NCBI RefSeq assembly: GCF_026168105.1
Contig: NZ_LBMW01000002.1
Span: 1 to 64,000 of the forward strand
Reading direction: 5' to 3'
Length of the DNA stretch: 64,000 nucleotides
Source of the DNA: Streptomyces hygroscopicus
GTDB lineage: Bacteria > Actinomycetota > Actinomycetes > Streptomycetales > Streptomycetaceae
Shown here: positions 51,676 to 57,308 of the stretch, piece after piece
How the letters are laid out: the number at the start of each line of letters is the position of its first letter
Numbering within the stretch: the stretch's first letter is position 1
The notes under the pieces: generated by a model
What the model saw: only the letters and a program-made list of their open reading frames with translations
Databases searched by the model: none
What the model was told of the DNA's origin: nothing
Translations under genes and position numbers: made by a program

Positions 51676-52878
51676 TCACAGGAACGTGCGCCCCTCGCCG
51701 CGATACGTCGGCACGGTCGCCGTGACCTTGTCGCCCTCCACCAGGTGCAGCGCGTCGAAGCGCTCGCACAACTCGCCGGCCTTGGCGTGCCGGAACCACA
51801 CCTTGTCACCGATGAGGAGGTCGTCGGCGGGCGCGCCCAGCAGCGGCGTCTGCACCTCGCCGGGACCCTCCTGGGGGTCGTACTCCAGTCCCTCGGGCAG
51901 ATACGGGACGGGCAGCCGGTCGCGGCCCGCGGCGCCCGACGCCGGATAGCCGCCGCCCAGCACGGTCACCACCCCGACACCCGGCCTGCGCACGACCGGC
52001 TGGGCGAACAGGGCGGCCGGACAGCCGTGGAACGAGGTGTAGTTGTCGAACAGCCTTGGTACGTACAGCCCCGAGCCCGCCGCTATCTCGGTCACCGCGT
52101 CCTCGGCGGCGGTGTACTGCACGCTGCCCGTCCCGCCGCCGTTGACGAACTCCAGGTCCGGCGCCACGGCGCGGACGGCGCGCACCACTTCGGCACGCCG
52201 CGACGCGAGCTCCCGGCGCGCCGCGGCCTGCATCAGCCGGATCGCCCGTGAGCGCACCGGACGCCCGGCCACCGCGTCGCCCACCCCGGCCACATGACCC
52301 TCGTACGCCATGATCCCCACCAGCCGGAAACCCGGCGTGCGCGCGACCGCGCGGGCCAGCTCGGCGACTTGAGCCGGGGAGCGGAGCGGGGAGCGGCGCG
52401 CGCCGACGCGGACGCGCCCGCCGAGCAGCACCAGGGACGTGTCCAACTCCACGCAGACACGCACCACTTCGGTGCCGCCCCGGCGGGCGTCGTCGACGAG
52501 CCGCAGCTGGGCGGGGTCGTCGATCATCACCGTGACGGCGGCGGCGAGCTTGGGGTCGGCGGTGAGTTCGGCGAAACCCTGCCGGTCGGCCGACGGATAG
52601 GCGAGCAGCACGTCGTCGAACCCGGAGCGGGCCAGCCACAGGGACTCGGCGAGCGTGAACGACATGATGCCCGCGAACCCCGCACGGGCCAGGACGCGTT
52701 CGAGCAGGACACGGCAGCGGACGGACTTGCTGGCGACGCGGATCGGCTTGCCGCCGGCCCTGCGGAGGAGGTCGTCGGCGTTCGCGTCGAACGCCCCCAG
52801 GTCCACGATCGCCAGCGGGGCGTCGAGGTGTTCGGTGGCCCGGTCGTAGCGGGCGCGGTCTGCGGCGCGGGCAGTCAT
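51676..52878 (-). CDS. PLP-dependent alanine racemase/D-threonine aldolase-fold enzyme
   Basis: Fold-type III PLP enzyme of 400 residues. PIRVASKSVRCRVLLERVL holds the PLP lysine, followed by MSFTLAESLWLARSGFDDVLLAYPS, ELDTSLVLLGGRVRVG, GIMAYEGHVAGVGD, NGGGTGSVQYTAAEDAVTEIAAGSGLY, and a C-terminal barrel LIGDKVWFRHAKAGELCERFDALHLVEG. It resembles the amino-acid deaminase/D-threonine aldolase group rather than a biosynthetic alanine racemase. ATG 52878 lacks a good ribosome site. Convergent with the SDR operon. Confidence 0.85.
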   Translation of the reverse strand: MTARAADRARYDRATEHLDAPLAIVDLGAFDANADDLLRRAGGKPIRVASKSVRCRVLLERVLARAGFAGIMSFTLAESLWLARSGFDDVLLAYPSADRQGFAELTADPKLAAAVTVMIDDPAQLRLVDDARRGGTEVVRVCVELDTSLVLLGGRVRVGARRSPLRSPAQVAELARAVARTPGFRLVGIMAYEGHVAGVGDAVAGRPVRSRAIRLMQAAARRELASRRAEVVRAVRAVAPDLEFVNGGGTGSVQYTAAEDAVTEIAAGSGLYVPRLFDNYTSFHGCPAALFAQPVVRRPGVGVVTVLGGGYPASGAAGRDRLPVPYLPEGLEYDPQEGPGEVQTPLLGAPADDLLIGDKVWFRHAKAGELCERFDALHLVEGDKVTATVPTYRGEGRTFL

Positions 52879-53168
52879 GAACGCAGCGTGCCAGATGCGA
52901 TTACCGCAGGGTAGGGGGACGTTCCGGGCAGATGCCCCGGTGCCGCGGACTGGTTCCCGTTCGAGGGGCATCAACCCGTAGAGTGACGCGGACGTGGGAA
53001 GCGGTGGCTCCGCCCGGGCGCGTACGCCCGGGATGGGTATCCGCCCGCGCGGGTATGCCTGCCAGGACGGGCGGCGCGTCCCGCACCACGCGTACCGGCC
53101 GCTCCGCAGGGGCGGTCGGACACCCCGGCGGACCCGGGGGCGGCCCGGCACAACGAAACGGGGGGAGC

Positions 53169-55124
53169 ATGAGCACGGAAGCGCGCCGCGCCTCCATCCC
53201 TCCGCGCCCCACGACCCCGCCCCGTCCGCCGGCCCCTCCGGGCGAACCGTCCGCGGAGCCGGACCGTACGCCTCCCGCCGCGCAGGGTCCGCTCCGGTCC
53301 GCGCCGCGCGACCGCGCCTCCGGGCCGGTCCCGCCCCGCCCCGGACACCCGCCCGCCACCGGGAGCGCTCCAGGACCGCAGGAGGCCCGGTCCGCCCGTC
53401 CGTTCCCGATCCCGGCTCCGACGCGCCCTGAGTGGCCGGCCGGGGCCGCATCCGGCGCGGCCGCCGCACCTCCCCGGCCCAGCGGTCCGCCGCGCGGGAC
53501 GCCCGCGTCCCCGGCCGCGACCCGGCCCGGGACGCCGACGGCGACCGGGAACGGTATACCGCGCTCCGCCGCGGCGAACGGCTCGCCCGACCGCCCGGGC
53601 ATGAACGGTTCTTCCGGGGGCCCCGTCGCGAACGGCACCGTCGAGCACCCGGGCGCGGCCCAGTCCCCTGCCCGAACCGGCGCGTCCGGGTCCGATGGGC
53701 CGCCCGGCCGGAACGGCACCCCGGAGCCCTCGCGCCCGGCGGACACGCCGGCCCACGCCGGGGCGAGCGGGGCTCCTGCGGGCTCCGGTCCGAATGGCGC
53801 CCCCGGTTGCCCGGAGGCCCCTGTCGTGCCGGCCGCGTCCGGGGCTCCGGCCCGGTCCGGGGTGGAGGGTTCAGCGGCGTGGTCCGGCGCGAACGGGTCC
53901 TCGGGGCCCTCGAGTTCGGGTGCGGGGGCGGCTGGGGCCCGCGCCGTCGCACGGCCCTTCCGGATCCTGGCGCCCGACACCGAACGGCCCACGAACGTGC
54001 CCGGCGATAGGCAACGGCCCGCCTCCGGTGGCGAGACGGACGGTGCGGCACGGCGCACTCCCGCATCCCAGCGGTTCCCGAACCTGCGGATCGGCCGCAC
54101 CGCCGAGCCCGTCGACCCGCCCCCGCCCGCGCCCTCCGCCCGCTTCCCGGACGCGCCGCCGACGGCCGGCGTGCCCGCGCGCGGCGCCGACGCGGACGCC
54201 GTGCCGCCGCCCGGCACCCCCCTGCCCACCGACGGCATCGTGGAGACGACCGCGCGCGTGGGGCACCGCCATGACGAAAACCGGCCCGCGGCCCCCACCC
54301 GCCCCATCGTGACCTTCGCCGAGCCCGACACGCGTGCCCTCGACACCGAGCGCCCCCGGCTCCTCGGTATCCGGGTACGGCCCCGCGCCGCGGCGGCCGC
54401 CGCCTGTCTGGTCCTCGGTCTCGGGCTCATCGGCGGTGCCGTTGCCGGAAGCTGGCTCACCGGGGACGACGCCGACGGCGGGGCACGGGGCGGGTTCACC
54501 ATCGCCGGGAGCCTGTGGCACAGCGTGCCCGTCGACCAGCTCTTCCCGCCCACCGTGGCGGGACCGGGCGCCGGCCCCGGCGGCTCGGACCGCGTCTGGA
54601 CCCGCATCGCCGTAGCCCCCGACAGCGGTTGCGCGGACGCCTTCGACCCCCTGCTGCGCAAGGCCCTGACCCCCGTCGGCTGTCTGCGGCTGCTGCGCGC
54701 CACCTACACGGACGCCACCCGCAGCGACGTCACCACGGTGGGGCTGTTGTTCACCCGTGCCGACGCTCCCGCCATGACCGCCCTGAACAGCCGCTTCAAG
54801 AGGGAGGGCCTCGACCGGCGCACCGATCTGATGCCCCGTCCGTACGCGGCGAAGGGCACCGTCGCCGAGGGATTCGGCGACGCCCAGCGCGCCTCCTGGA
54901 CGATCTCGGTCCGCACGGACATGCCCGTCGTCGTCTACGCCGTCTCCGGCTTCCCCGACGGCCGTACCGTCACCGAACCGCAGCCCGCCGACGCGGCCAT
55001 GGCGACCGGCGCCACCACGGCCCCCGCCCAGGCGGGCCTCGGCAACGAGGCGGTGGGCCTCGCCGACCGCATCGAAGGGGACCTGCGCACCACCATCACC
55101 GCGGCCACGGAGAAGCCGTCATGA
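53169..55124 (+). CDS. Proline-rich single-pass membrane protein paired with mycosin-like protease
   Basis: Protein of 651 residues, family not recognised. Residues 1 to about 395 are Pro/Ala/Gly/Ser-rich and disordered (many NG and PG dipeptides). A transmembrane helix sits around 402-425 (AAAAAACLVLGLGLIGGAVAG). A globular C-terminal domain of about 220 residues with two Cys (GCADAF, VGCLRLL) is predicted outside. ATG 53169 has GGGGGAGC. The stop overlaps the mycosin-like gene start (ATGA), so the proteins are made together. It could present or be the substrate of the protease. Confidence 0.8.
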   Translation: MSTEARRASIPPRPTTPPRPPAPPGEPSAEPDRTPPAAQGPLRSAPRDRASGPVPPRPGHPPATGSAPGPQEARSARPFPIPAPTRPEWPAGAASGAAAAPPRPSGPPRGTPASPAATRPGTPTATGNGIPRSAAANGSPDRPGMNGSSGGPVANGTVEHPGAAQSPARTGASGSDGPPGRNGTPEPSRPADTPAHAGASGAPAGSGPNGAPGCPEAPVVPAASGAPARSGVEGSAAWSGANGSSGPSSSGAGAAGARAVARPFRILAPDTERPTNVPGDRQRPASGGETDGAARRTPASQRFPNLRIGRTAEPVDPPPPAPSARFPDAPPTAGVPARGADADAVPPPGTPLPTDGIVETTARVGHRHDENRPAAPTRPIVTFAEPDTRALDTERPRLLGIRVRPRAAAAAACLVLGLGLIGGAVAGSWLTGDDADGGARGGFTIAGSLWHSVPVDQLFPPTVAGPGAGPGGSDRVWTRIAVAPDSGCADAFDPLLRKALTPVGCLRLLRATYTDATRSDVTTVGLLFTRADAPAMTALNSRFKREGLDRRTDLMPRPYAAKGTVAEGFGDAQRASWTISVRTDMPVVVYAVSGFPDGRTVTEPQPADAAMATGATTAPAQAGLGNEAVGLADRIEGDLRTTITAATEKPS

Positions 55125-56290
55125 GCACCCGTACCACCGGCGCCCGCCTGCTGACCCTCCTGCTCGCCGGCTCCCTGGCCCTGCTGCCCTCCACCGCCGC
55201 TCACGCCGACGGCATACGTGCCCAGGAGTGGGCCCTGGACGCCCTGCACAGCCAGGCGCTCTGGCAGACCACCAAGGGCAAGGGCATCACCGTCGCCGTC
55301 CTCGACACCGGCGTCGACGGCACCCACCCCGACCTGACCGGCAACGTCCTGCCCGGCAAGGACATGGTCGGCTTCGGAGCCCGGCGCGGCGACCGCCCCT
55401 GGGCCCGGCACGGCACCGCCATGGCCGGCATCATCGCCGGTCACGGCCACGGCATCGGCGATGGCGACGGTGTCATCGGCATCGCCCCCGAGGCGAAGAT
55501 CCTGCCCGTCCGCGTCATCCTCGAGGACGGTGACCCGGCCCGCACGAGGGCGCGGAACGCCCGCGGCAACGCACTCGCCGAAGGCATCCGCTGGGCCACC
55601 GACCACGGCGCCGACGTCATCAACCTCTCCCTCGGCGACGACTCCGACTCCGCGCACCCCGAAGCGGCCGAGGACGAGGCGGTGCAGTACGCCCTCAAGA
55701 AGGGCGCCGCCGTCGTCGCCTCGGCCGGCAACGGCGGCGAGAAGGGCGACCACATCTCGTATCCCGCGGCCTACCCGGGAGTCATCGCCGCGACCGCCGT
55801 CGACCGCTACGGCACCCGCGCCTCCTTCTCCACCCGCCGCTGGTACGCCACCGTCAGCGCACCCGGTGTCGACGTGGTCATCGCCGACCCCGATCGCAAG
55901 TACTACGACGGCTGGGGCACCAGCGCGGCGTCCGCGTTCGTCTCCGGTGCCGTCGCGCTGATCAAGGCGGCCCGCCCGGGGCTGTCCCCGGCCCAGATCA
56001 AGCAACTCCTGGAGAGGACCGCCCGCGACGCCCCCACCGGGGGCCGCGACGACGCCCGTGGCTTCGGCTTCATCGACCCCGTGGCGGCCATCAGGGCGGC
56101 GGCACACCTGAAGCCGGAGGGGCTGCACGCGGCGGCATACGGGCAGAAGTACTTCGGCACGGGCCCCGACACGAGCGACGACGCGGCGGGCTCCCCCGGC
56201 TGGGCGGGCGCGCTCGCGGGCGGCCTGGGCGTGGCACTGCTGGTGGTCTCGGTTGTGCTGTGGCGGGGCCGACGCAGGGGCGCCCAATAG
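55121..56290 (+). CDS. Mycosin-like subtilase (S8), membrane anchored
   Basis: Subtilisin-family serine protease of 389 residues. Signal peptide to about Ala29 (LLTLLLAGSLALLPSTAAHAD), catalytic Asp62 (VAVLDTGVDGTHPDL), His97 (RHGTAMAGIIAGH), Ser268 (GTSAASAFVSGAVAL), and a C-terminal membrane helix (WAGALAGGLGVALLVVSVVLW) before RGRRRGAQ. This build matches type VII secretion mycosins (MycP), but no EccB-E, WXG100 or EspG gene is nearby. It is coupled to the proline-rich partner. Confidence 0.9.
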   Translation: MSTRTTGARLLTLLLAGSLALLPSTAAHADGIRAQEWALDALHSQALWQTTKGKGITVAVLDTGVDGTHPDLTGNVLPGKDMVGFGARRGDRPWARHGTAMAGIIAGHGHGIGDGDGVIGIAPEAKILPVRVILEDGDPARTRARNARGNALAEGIRWATDHGADVINLSLGDDSDSAHPEAAEDEAVQYALKKGAAVVASAGNGGEKGDHISYPAAYPGVIAATAVDRYGTRASFSTRRWYATVSAPGVDVVIADPDRKYYDGWGTSAASAFVSGAVALIKAARPGLSPAQIKQLLERTARDAPTGGRDDARGFGFIDPVAAIRAAAHLKPEGLHAAAYGQKYFGTGPDTSDDAAGSPGWAGALAGGLGVALLVVSVVLWRGRRRGAQ

Positions 56291-56311: not shown

Positions 56312-57181
56312 CTACTCGTCGCACCCGAGCTCGACGCCGTCCCTGAACCACGCGGCGTCCCGGAACGCCGAAACGGCCGCCTGCGCCGCCGCCTCCACCA
56401 GCGAAATCCCCATCGCCTTCGTCGTGTTGCCGTTCGACAGCGCGGCCACCAGACAGTCGCGGCCGTCCGCCGTCACCCGACCGATGCTGTTGACGTTCCA
56501 CAGCCCGGTCGTGCTGCGCGGCAGCCAGCCGTTCTTCAGCGCCCACCGCGAGCCGTCGGCGACCGCGGACACGCCCCAGTCCTGATCCTCGGCGATGTTG
56601 CCCATGAGCCCCTGCAGATACGCCCGCGAGCCCTCGCTCAGCCGGGAGTCGTCCCCGAACACCTGCTGGAGCAGGACGAGCTGATCGGCCGCCGTGGTCC
56701 GGGTCAGCCCCCACAGCCCGCCGTCGCCACCCTTGGTGTCCGTCAGGCCGAAGCGCTTGTTGGCGCTGTCGAGGCCGTCCGCCTGCCCGATCGCGGTCCA
56801 CAGCGCCGACGCGGAGTCGTTGTCGCTGTTCTCGATCATCACGGTGGCGTACGACCTCTCCCGCGCACTCAGATGTCGGCCGGCGTCCTGCGCCTGGAGC
56901 AGCAGCGCCGCCAGGATGTCGACCTTCACGATGCTCGCCGTGCCGAAGGTGCCCCGGCCGTGCGTGGCGCTCCGGCCGGATTCCATGTCCAGCACCGCCA
57001 CGGCCACGTCCGCGCCGTCCTCGACGGTCACCGACTTCATGGCCGTCCCGAGCAGCGCGTCCGGGTCCGCCGAGGGCTCCGCCGCAGCTTCCACCGATGC
57101 CTCCCGGCTCCTGGAGGACGACGCCGAGGGCGTCACAGACCGACTGCGACGATACGGCCCCGCAACGGCGTGCGCCCGCAC
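56312..57181 (-). CDS. Beta-lactamase/penicillin-recognising-fold serine hydrolase
   Basis: About 289 residues. SxxK at Ser83-Lys86 (TASIVKVDIL), SDN at 119-121 (IENSDNDSAS), and WALKNGWLPRS in place of KTG. The fold is class A beta-lactamase-like. No signal peptide or lipobox is seen from the GTG 57181 start, so it may be cytoplasmic or mis-started. Just upstream is a repeat with several AGGAG sequences. GTG 57136 is another start. Antibiotic hydrolysis cannot be claimed. It is divergent from the SseB gene. Confidence 0.75.
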   Translation of the reverse strand: MRAHAVAGPYRRSRSVTPSASSSRSREASVEAAAEPSADPDALLGTAMKSVTVEDGADVAVAVLDMESGRSATHGRGTFGTASIVKVDILAALLLQAQDAGRHLSARERSYATVMIENSDNDSASALWTAIGQADGLDSANKRFGLTDTKGGDGGLWGLTRTTAADQLVLLQQVFGDDSRLSEGSRAYLQGLMGNIAEDQDWGVSAVADGSRWALKNGWLPRSTTGLWNVNSIGRVTADGRDCLVAALSNGNTTKAMGISLVEAAAQAAVSAFRDAAWFRDGVELGCDE

Positions 57182-57185
57182 CCTC

Positions 57186-57245
57186 GCATCCGCCTTCTCC
57201 TGGTCTGTACCGTCTCCTGTACCGCGTATCCGCCGTCTCCTGTAC
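57186..57245. repeat. Imperfect repeat upstream of the beta-lactamase-fold gene
   Basis: CCGTCTCCTGTAC occurs at 57210-57222 and 57233-57245. Longer units CG(C/T)ATCCGCC(T/G)TCTCCTG...TGTAC start at 57186 and 57224. On the minus strand each unit supplies AGGAG, giving three Shine-Dalgarno-like sites ahead of the hydrolase. Confidence 0.75.
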
Positions 57246-57308
57246 GGGGGGCTCCGCGTCCCGGGGGCGGCACGAGTGCGGCAGAGACCCCCGATAGGGT
57301 CGGTGACC

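Follow-up and report, generated by a model that had tools for sequence, protein, structure and literature searches.

A mycosin-family protease with a dedicated membrane partner outside type VII secretion loci in Streptomyces

What is a mycosin-family protease doing when it is encoded away from any type VII secretion system (T7SS, or ESX) and overlaps the gene of a proline-rich membrane protein? The question is raised by two genes of Streptomyces hygroscopicus in a 64,000-nucleotide stretch of contig NZ_LBMW01000002.1 (positions 1 to 64,000 of the forward strand, assembly GCF_026168105.1), referred to here as the window. The original prediction, made from the sequence alone, described an ATGA overlap between the protease gene and that of a 651-residue protein (here the partner) with a head of about 400 residues, one membrane helix and an ectodomain containing two cysteines; open reading frames (ORFs), composition and hydropathy show this description to be accurate (Table 1). 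The pair is an ESX-independent variant of the mycosin system. Our favored but tentative reading is that it forms a dedicated protease–receptor unit, independent of T7SS, whose partner would dock the protease and regulate it.

The protease matches the S8/subtilase family in Pfam (PF00082) and scores 321.3 bits with the curated NCBIfam mycosin model TIGR03921, above its cut-off of 278.75. Alignment identifies Asp62, His97, Asn204 and Ser268 in the window protein, and this catalytic tetrad is kept in 137 of 138 pair-protease rows (143 protease matches, 139 of them paired and one of these too short; the G125 protease is counted twice). The AlphaFold2 model has the subtilisin fold, with MycP1 (4m1z) among the structure matches. 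The mycosin layout proposed originally holds: the triad is present, the C-terminal helix is seen both by hydropathy and in the model, and an N-terminal helix is modeled, with signal cleavage judged by eye only. The protein has no cysteine, and only about 25 residues separate the apparent signal peptide from the catalytic domain. Its nearest relative found, from Streptomyces sp. TP-A0356, is 90% identical. The pair proteases of loci L147, L148, L203 (both copies) and L219 fall below the TIGR03921 cut-off, as does P0004, a mycosin of the host's own T7SS locus (260.5). Retention of the active site suggests that protease activity matters in the pair. In family f89, the second-copy protease of one tandem pair (L208:8377-9462, plus strand) has Asp, His, Asn and Ser all replaced and is an apparent pseudoprotease that is still paired with a partner.

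The two genes form a real conserved module. A protease search of species genomes gave 409 loci, of which the best 80, all from Streptomyces or other actinobacteria, were kept, and in all 80 the C-terminal domain of the partner lies just upstream of the protease. Of these near loci, 66 share an in-frame ATGA and 13 a GTGA; the frame is broken in L059, and L089, whose partner frame contains an early stop, was handled through its C-terminal match only. The protease likewise adjoins the partner in 27 of 27 distant Streptomycetaceae regions, fetched for their full-length divergent partner matches, and a 4-base overlap is present in 32 of the 47 distinct pairs of the distant set, with L127, L133 and L160 differing in overlap arrangement. 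Since similarity of the protease decided which near loci were taken, and similarity of the partner which distant regions, part of the pairing rate follows from the sampling itself. Because the frames of both genes, their order and their overlap are all kept across relatives, the pair is real and not a chance arrangement; a conserved N-terminus speaks for the partner start codon, with MSTEAR present in 37 of 57 heads.

The pair extends to two further families, f3 (L148) and f89. Seven of the 17 regions fetched for f89 have pairs, six of these with two in tandem, and in the 12 tandem pairs an in-frame protease start lies 7 to 25 bases before the partner end; the other 10 regions contain only a protease-free domain, beside truA. 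Second pairs are found in some genomes of the window's genus (L147, L218, L219, L220). At E 1e-3 or better, 177 of 249 sampled Streptomycetaceae genomes have a partner match, including 104 of the 105 of the window's genus (its own genome among them), all at E 4e-40 or better; the sole member of the genus with no match, G218, is assembled in 910 contigs. In genera g3, g4 and g14 the partner is often matched only weakly, and in eight weak-match loci (L162–L169) no protease was found within 900 bases downstream. Three of these eight, all from g3, lie beside truA, and the other five have no such neighbor in their short flanks. More broadly, a narrow partner profile matches 15 of 396 genomes of the phylum, and a wide profile, which takes in protease-free homologues, matches 95 of 394 genomes of the class.

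The two proteins also diverge together. Partner and protease distances correlate at 0.92 over the 55 loci with both flanking genes, and the partial correlation, given the upstream alanine-racemase-like gene, is 0.66 over the same loci; control partial correlations with the downstream beta-lactamase-like gene are 0.21 for the partner and 0.35 for the protease. On 76 loci the partner–protease partial correlation is 0.52, and each value was reached in 0 of 2000 permutations. This linked divergence fits contact between the two proteins. It exceeds that with the neighboring genes and so counts against the idea that the two are merely neighbors in an old operon, with unrelated jobs. The whole neighborhood is indeed syntenic, as that idea would have it: among near loci long enough to tell, the racemase-like gene lies upstream in 52 of 54 and the beta-lactamase-like gene downstream in 72 of 76. 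The pair nevertheless stays together in other families despite different flanking genes and occurs in tandem copies, and we regard mere proximity as very improbable.

Is the pair a displaced part of ESX? The host genome (8.65 Mb, 159 contigs) carries its T7SS on contigs other than that of the window (C95): C119 has EccC (782 bits), EccB, WXG100 proteins and two mycosins, C56 has a second EccC, and over-cut-off T7SS matches lie on C119, C56 and C108. Searches of the host genome for EccB, EccC and WXG100 proteins placed none of the matches listed on C95, in agreement with the earlier statement that the window has no T7SS genes. At E 1e-60 or better, EccC goes unmatched in 11 of the 249 Streptomycetaceae genomes, and 10 of these have a partner match; the eleventh, G138, is 71% complete and has none. 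In a further two genomes, G170 and G210, EccC is matched only weakly (7e-61 and 2e-62). An EccB search at E 1e-3, in which the positive controls G000 and G060 matched at 191 and 181 bits, gave no match in the 12 pair genomes with no or weak EccC. The adjacent pair is present in all 12, several of which are nearly closed (G170 and G118 in one contig, G230 and G186 in two). Of the 72 genomes with no partner match, 71 have an EccC match, the single exception being G138. This double dissociation of the pair and the secretion core (INDEPENDENCE from ESX) speaks against the pair being part of ESX. In the host the pair is not encoded with EccB, EccC or WXG100 proteins, its presence among relatives is not tied to the secretion core, and the 12 genomes are at odds with the possibility, raised at the outset, that relatives consistently carry it within an ESX locus.

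These genomes also bear on whether the host's ESX draws on the protease as a spare mycosin encoded at a distant locus. Its membership in TIGR03921 and the presence of a T7SS in the host would fit such a role, as would one pair that lies in an ESX cluster (G083) and a statement in PMC8401907, citing others, that a subtilisin-type protease of S. scabies encoded away from the ESX cluster might act as EccB. A spare mycosin would not be expected to persist in 12 genomes with no EccB and no or weak EccC, nor to have its partner missing from 71 genomes with an EccC match. The host's ESX locus moreover has two mycosins of its own, and the pair proteases occupy a separate tree branch; we consider this explanation improbable.

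The branch was defined by quick maximum-likelihood trees with support from the Shimodaira–Hasegawa-like approximate likelihood ratio test (SH-aLRT), in which 7 of the 80 nearest loci were included. In a first tree of 88 rows, a single branch (SH-aLRT 98) divides 66 pair rows from 22 T7SS-locus rows. The L219 copy, although inside an ESX cluster, falls among the remaining pair proteases. This tree counts both T7SS mycosins of the host twice, and likewise the pair protease of G125 (L220, L234); three short mycosin fragments (L242, L244) had been dropped beforehand. Twenty places were then fetched from the protease side; L258 and L259 already had a partner match, and the other 18 had no known one. 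A partner beside every branch protease is ruled out, since none was found at these 18 places; at 10 of them, all in f89, the protease belongs to the pair branch, and at 8 it falls with the T7SS-type mycosins. With 22 rows added and the duplicates removed, a second tree gives a pair branch of 77 rows (support 99) that includes the 10 partner-less f89 proteases. The association therefore appears old and strong, but lost or unrecognizable in one f89 lineage. The protease matches listed also included families f99, f81, f5, f113 and f103. The original prediction named free separation of the two genes in other genomes as a finding that would count against it. This was not seen in the Streptomycetaceae loci examined, and it is true in part, both for the 10 f89 proteases and for partner-type domains that are present with no protease. 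At L248–L253 and L255–L257, a conserved gene of roughly 270–310 codons precedes partner-less members of the pair branch; we take it to encode a DUF62-type S-adenosylmethionine-dependent enzyme.

The C-terminal domain of the partner is a 226-residue unit with two cysteines, C488 and C505; the other cysteines of the protein are C214 in the head and C413 in the helix. C488, C505 and R510 are invariant in 45 aligned ectodomain homologues, 10 of which are protease-free. With only two cysteines, the ectodomain can contain one disulfide at most. At the thresholds applied, neither Pfam nor NCBIfam matches the window partner, and by sequence it has only three matches among solved structures (E 0.24–0.29), all in the membrane-helix region. 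The AlphaFold2 model of the ectodomain has a mean predicted local distance difference test score of 89.5 and a predicted template-modeling score of 0.80, with the membrane-proximal stalk among its less confident parts. The first five Foldseek matches of this model are extracytoplasmic domains of TiME and PknH, at poor E values of 0.09 to 0.43. The VIA-align ranking is headed by the PknH sensor domain 4ESQ (Z 6.7, 145 aligned residues, rmsd 4.4 Å), followed by TiME (6.4) and StARkin domains (5.2); identity in the PknH and TiME rows is 11–12%. The corresponding Pfam profile, PF14032 (PknH_C), matches 3 of the 45 homologues weakly (best E 0.0033) and leaves the window partner itself unmatched. 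Judged from the predicted model, the ectodomain is likely related in fold to the PknH sensor domain. The pair that could not be named originally can thus be named in part: the protease is a mycosin by a curated model, and the partner ectodomain is only nearest to the PknH sensor fold. A relationship of the partner to EccB was also considered and rejected for want of a profile match (hhalign probability 0.1 against the host EccB, single sequence). Our literature search found nothing on the TiME protein.

The 406-residue head of the window partner consists of 21% Pro, 18% Ala and 13% Gly, and Lys and Tyr are absent. This composition suggests that the head is disordered, and the Arg-rich flank ahead of the helix would place it on the cytoplasmic side. 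Head length in near loci varies widely (median 417, range 13 to 863) across the 57 of 80 for which ribosome-binding signals allowed a guess at the approximate start; contig ends truncate some of the near heads. Two short motifs are kept in this variable setting: of the 80 near heads, 52 contain [ST]TEA[RQH] and 55 contain RFPD, against shuffled means of 0.3 and 0.5. Their retention amid variable length indicates that the head probably binds something specific within near relatives.

Table 1. Coordinates of the partner–protease pair and of its flanking genes in the window
Feature	Position	Strand	Evidence
Partner gene, 651-residue single-pass membrane protein, first of the pair	53169..55124	+	ORF and translation
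Head, residues 1–406, Pro/Ala/Gly-rich, predicted disordered and putatively cytoplasmic	53169..54386	+	Composition, helix position
Conserved head motif MSTEARRASIPPRP	53169..53210	+	Motif counts in near heads
Conserved head motif SARFPD, residues 323–328	54135..54152	+	Motif counts in near heads
Single transmembrane helix of partner, residues 407–425	54387..54443	+	Hydropathy; helix in AlphaFold2 model
Extracytoplasmic domain of partner	54444..55121	+	Alignment, AlphaFold2, fold matches
ATGA stop/start overlap, bases common to both ORFs	55121..55124	+	Sequence
Tail-anchored S8 protease, mycosin family, 389 residues	55121..56290	+	TIGR03921, subtilisin fold
Catalytic Asp62 codon	55304..55306	+	Alignment; kept in 137/138 pair-protease rows
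Catalytic His97 codon	55409..55411	+	Alignment; kept in 137/138 pair-protease rows
Catalytic Ser268 codon	55922..55924	+	Alignment; kept in 137/138 pair-protease rows
C-terminal membrane helix of protease, residues 362–380	56204..56260	+	Hydropathy; model helix 361–387
Upstream flank, protein with alanine-racemase N-terminal domain	51679..52881	-	
Downstream flank, beta-lactamase-like protein	56315..57250	-	

How might such a pair work? The observations to be accounted for are the gene order, the overlap, the pairing, the separate protease branch, the intact catalytic residues and the linked divergence, together with the occurrence of the pair in genomes that have no EccB and no or weak EccC, and the head motifs of near relatives. 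From these we infer physical contact between the two proteins, the direction of control, the topology and the function of the head. The unit would sit at the outer face of the cytoplasmic membrane and would have no need for a T7SS, its protease belonging to a mycosin branch that travels with the partner. There the partner ectodomain may dock the protease and control its activity, comparable to EccB as a membrane contact of mycosins in ESX, while the disordered, Pro-rich head may bind something cytoplasmic via its short motifs. A more ambitious version, which we regard as doubtful, is that this mycosin branch works with a sensor-like partner as an ESX-independent envelope signaling unit, near-universal in Streptomyces, with the protease controlled by ligand binding outside the cell and the head relaying to the cytoplasm.

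Several observations weigh against the docking proposal or parts of it. One pair, at L219 in G083, lies within an ESX cluster, 20 kb from EccC, so some link to T7SS may exist. Partner-type domains exist with no protease at all, so the domain may basically serve some other purpose; no recognizable partner, for its part, accompanies ten f89 members of the pair branch. The head motifs are nearly absent from distant Streptomycetaceae ([ST]TEA[RQH] in 0 of 27 heads, RFPD in 1 of 27), and the PknH fold match is weak (Foldseek E of 0.09 or worse, VIA-align Z under 8). Finally, the partner–protease partial correlation falls to 0.41 on 54 near loci (0 of 2000 permutations), and a distance correlation can stem from shared location or rate, the control gene being unmatched for rate. 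The cluster at L219 (30-10820) is of ESX type and contains three mycosin genes, one of them with a partner, and several WXG-like proteins as judged by eye.

The original prediction spoke of a protease–substrate or protease–scaffold module. The module stands, and of the two roles that of dock or regulator is the one we favor. Were the partner a substrate, the protease would cut the ectodomain or the stalk, shedding it and releasing the head or signaling through it, as in regulated membrane proteolysis. The conserved catalytic residues, the predicted location of both proteins on the same membrane face, the less confident stalk and head motifs that could carry a signal are all compatible with this. 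The ectodomain is, however, compact and well predicted, with no recognized cut site, and the L208 second copy keeps its partner after losing four catalytic residues; this loss excludes cutting by that copy, although the first copy beside it is intact. We consider the substrate role unlikely, although it is the chief rival of docking.

A further possibility is that the ectodomain acts in trans as a folding helper or inhibitor, replacing the pro-domain of secreted subtilisins. The residues ahead of the catalytic domain are too few for a classical pro-domain, and in the pairs surveyed the protease gene follows that of the partner. After the helix, leaving out a short strand at 72–75, the predicted elements begin strand–helix–strand–strand–helix–strand, which is the element order of subtilisin pro-domains. 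Mycosins are not known to have a classical inhibitory pro-domain, which we count against this idea; the structure title of 4m1z mentions an N-terminal propeptide. No pro-domain structure is among the fold matches listed, a result that does not exclude it, and partner-type domains also occur with no protease. On balance, a helper in trans seems rather improbable, and docking with regulation remains the reading that we prefer.

The protease-free domains recur at one place. In the S. hygroscopicus genome itself, a protein with the same ectodomain and no protease is encoded between truA and rplM/rpsI (G000:C80:50385-51092, minus strand; L146 ORF 5377-6354, minus strand). The same place is occupied in L151 and L152 of the same genus and in L205, L211–L217 and L222 of f89, with two copies side by side in L205 and L211–L213; L221 has a protease-free domain beside truA at a contig end. 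The corresponding interval of M. tuberculosis contains ESX-4. Among 20 genomes inspected near rplM, two have an ESX cluster and no domain (G686 and G834, where L277 and L280 contain EccC, EccD and a mycosin) and two have the domain and no ESX (G004 and G018; L268 and L269). The two were not found together near rplM in these 20 genomes, 16 of which showed neither; because truA went undetected in 8 of the 20 stretches, coverage of the truA–rplM interval was incomplete in some. In three f90 genomes that match the domain somewhere, no match lies near rplM.

The kind of protease is known; an ESX-independent, partner-bound branch of it is not described in the literature searched. That search covered mycosins, stand-alone ones included, Streptomyces T7SS and PknH-like proteins, with most subscription journals outside it, and found no description of the pair. 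The finding gives a likely meaning to a pair that would otherwise be labeled a T7SS-associated protease and a matchless protein. It also presents a near-core Streptomyces mycosin with an active site and its own partner in genomes where the secretion core was not found, a simple setting in a non-pathogen suited to the laboratory in which docking, protease activity and secretion could be separated, and it makes the mycosin label by itself poor evidence of a T7SS.

Among known systems, the window protease is closest to the ESX mycosins (MycP, TIGR03921), with which it shares the S8 fold, the catalytic tetrad, an apparent signal peptide and the C-terminal helix. It differs from them in lying outside an ESX locus, in its separate branch, in its lack of cysteine and in the dedicated partner upstream, and pair proteases occur in genomes with no EccB and no or weak EccC. 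According to PMC5082899, the ESX membrane complex depends on mycosin for its stability although secretion does not require the protease activity; that paper, from 2016, calls the essential role of the mycosin unclear, and it reports that small amounts of MycP5 co-purify with EccB5 and EccE5. A mycosin beside an uncharacterized protein is also found in Streptomyces pratensis (Sfla_1620/1621); this pair differs in lying in the bldB region, and its neighbor is said in PMC4239341 to resemble ESX-1-associated Ala/Pro-rich proteins. Its host counterpart is likely the T7SS-locus pair P0003/P0004 on C119 and not the window pair. The window partner as counterpart of the Ala/Pro-rich neighbor is ruled out, since the host neighbor, P0003, is a long WXG-like protein as judged by eye and a partner search in 13 other T7SS-locus regions gave no match. 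The best fold matches of the ectodomain, the PknH sensor (4ESQ, PF14032) and the TiME soluble domain (7CU8, 7CU9), are likewise extracytoplasmic domains placed after one membrane helix. Unlike PknH, the partner has no kinase domain, and it has one cysteine pair where the PknH sensor has two disulfides (PMC3601408) and a cleft thought to bind a small molecule (PMC3601408, PMC4118811). In ESX, EccB is likewise a single-pass membrane protein encoded beside a mycosin, and in the host locus EccB (P0006) and mycosin (P0005) are separated by 9 bases; the partner differs from it in its long disordered head, its different fold match and its lack of profile similarity to the host EccB. By this analogy the pair looks like the protease-plus-membrane-dock sub-unit of ESX with no channel, though its dock is not EccB.

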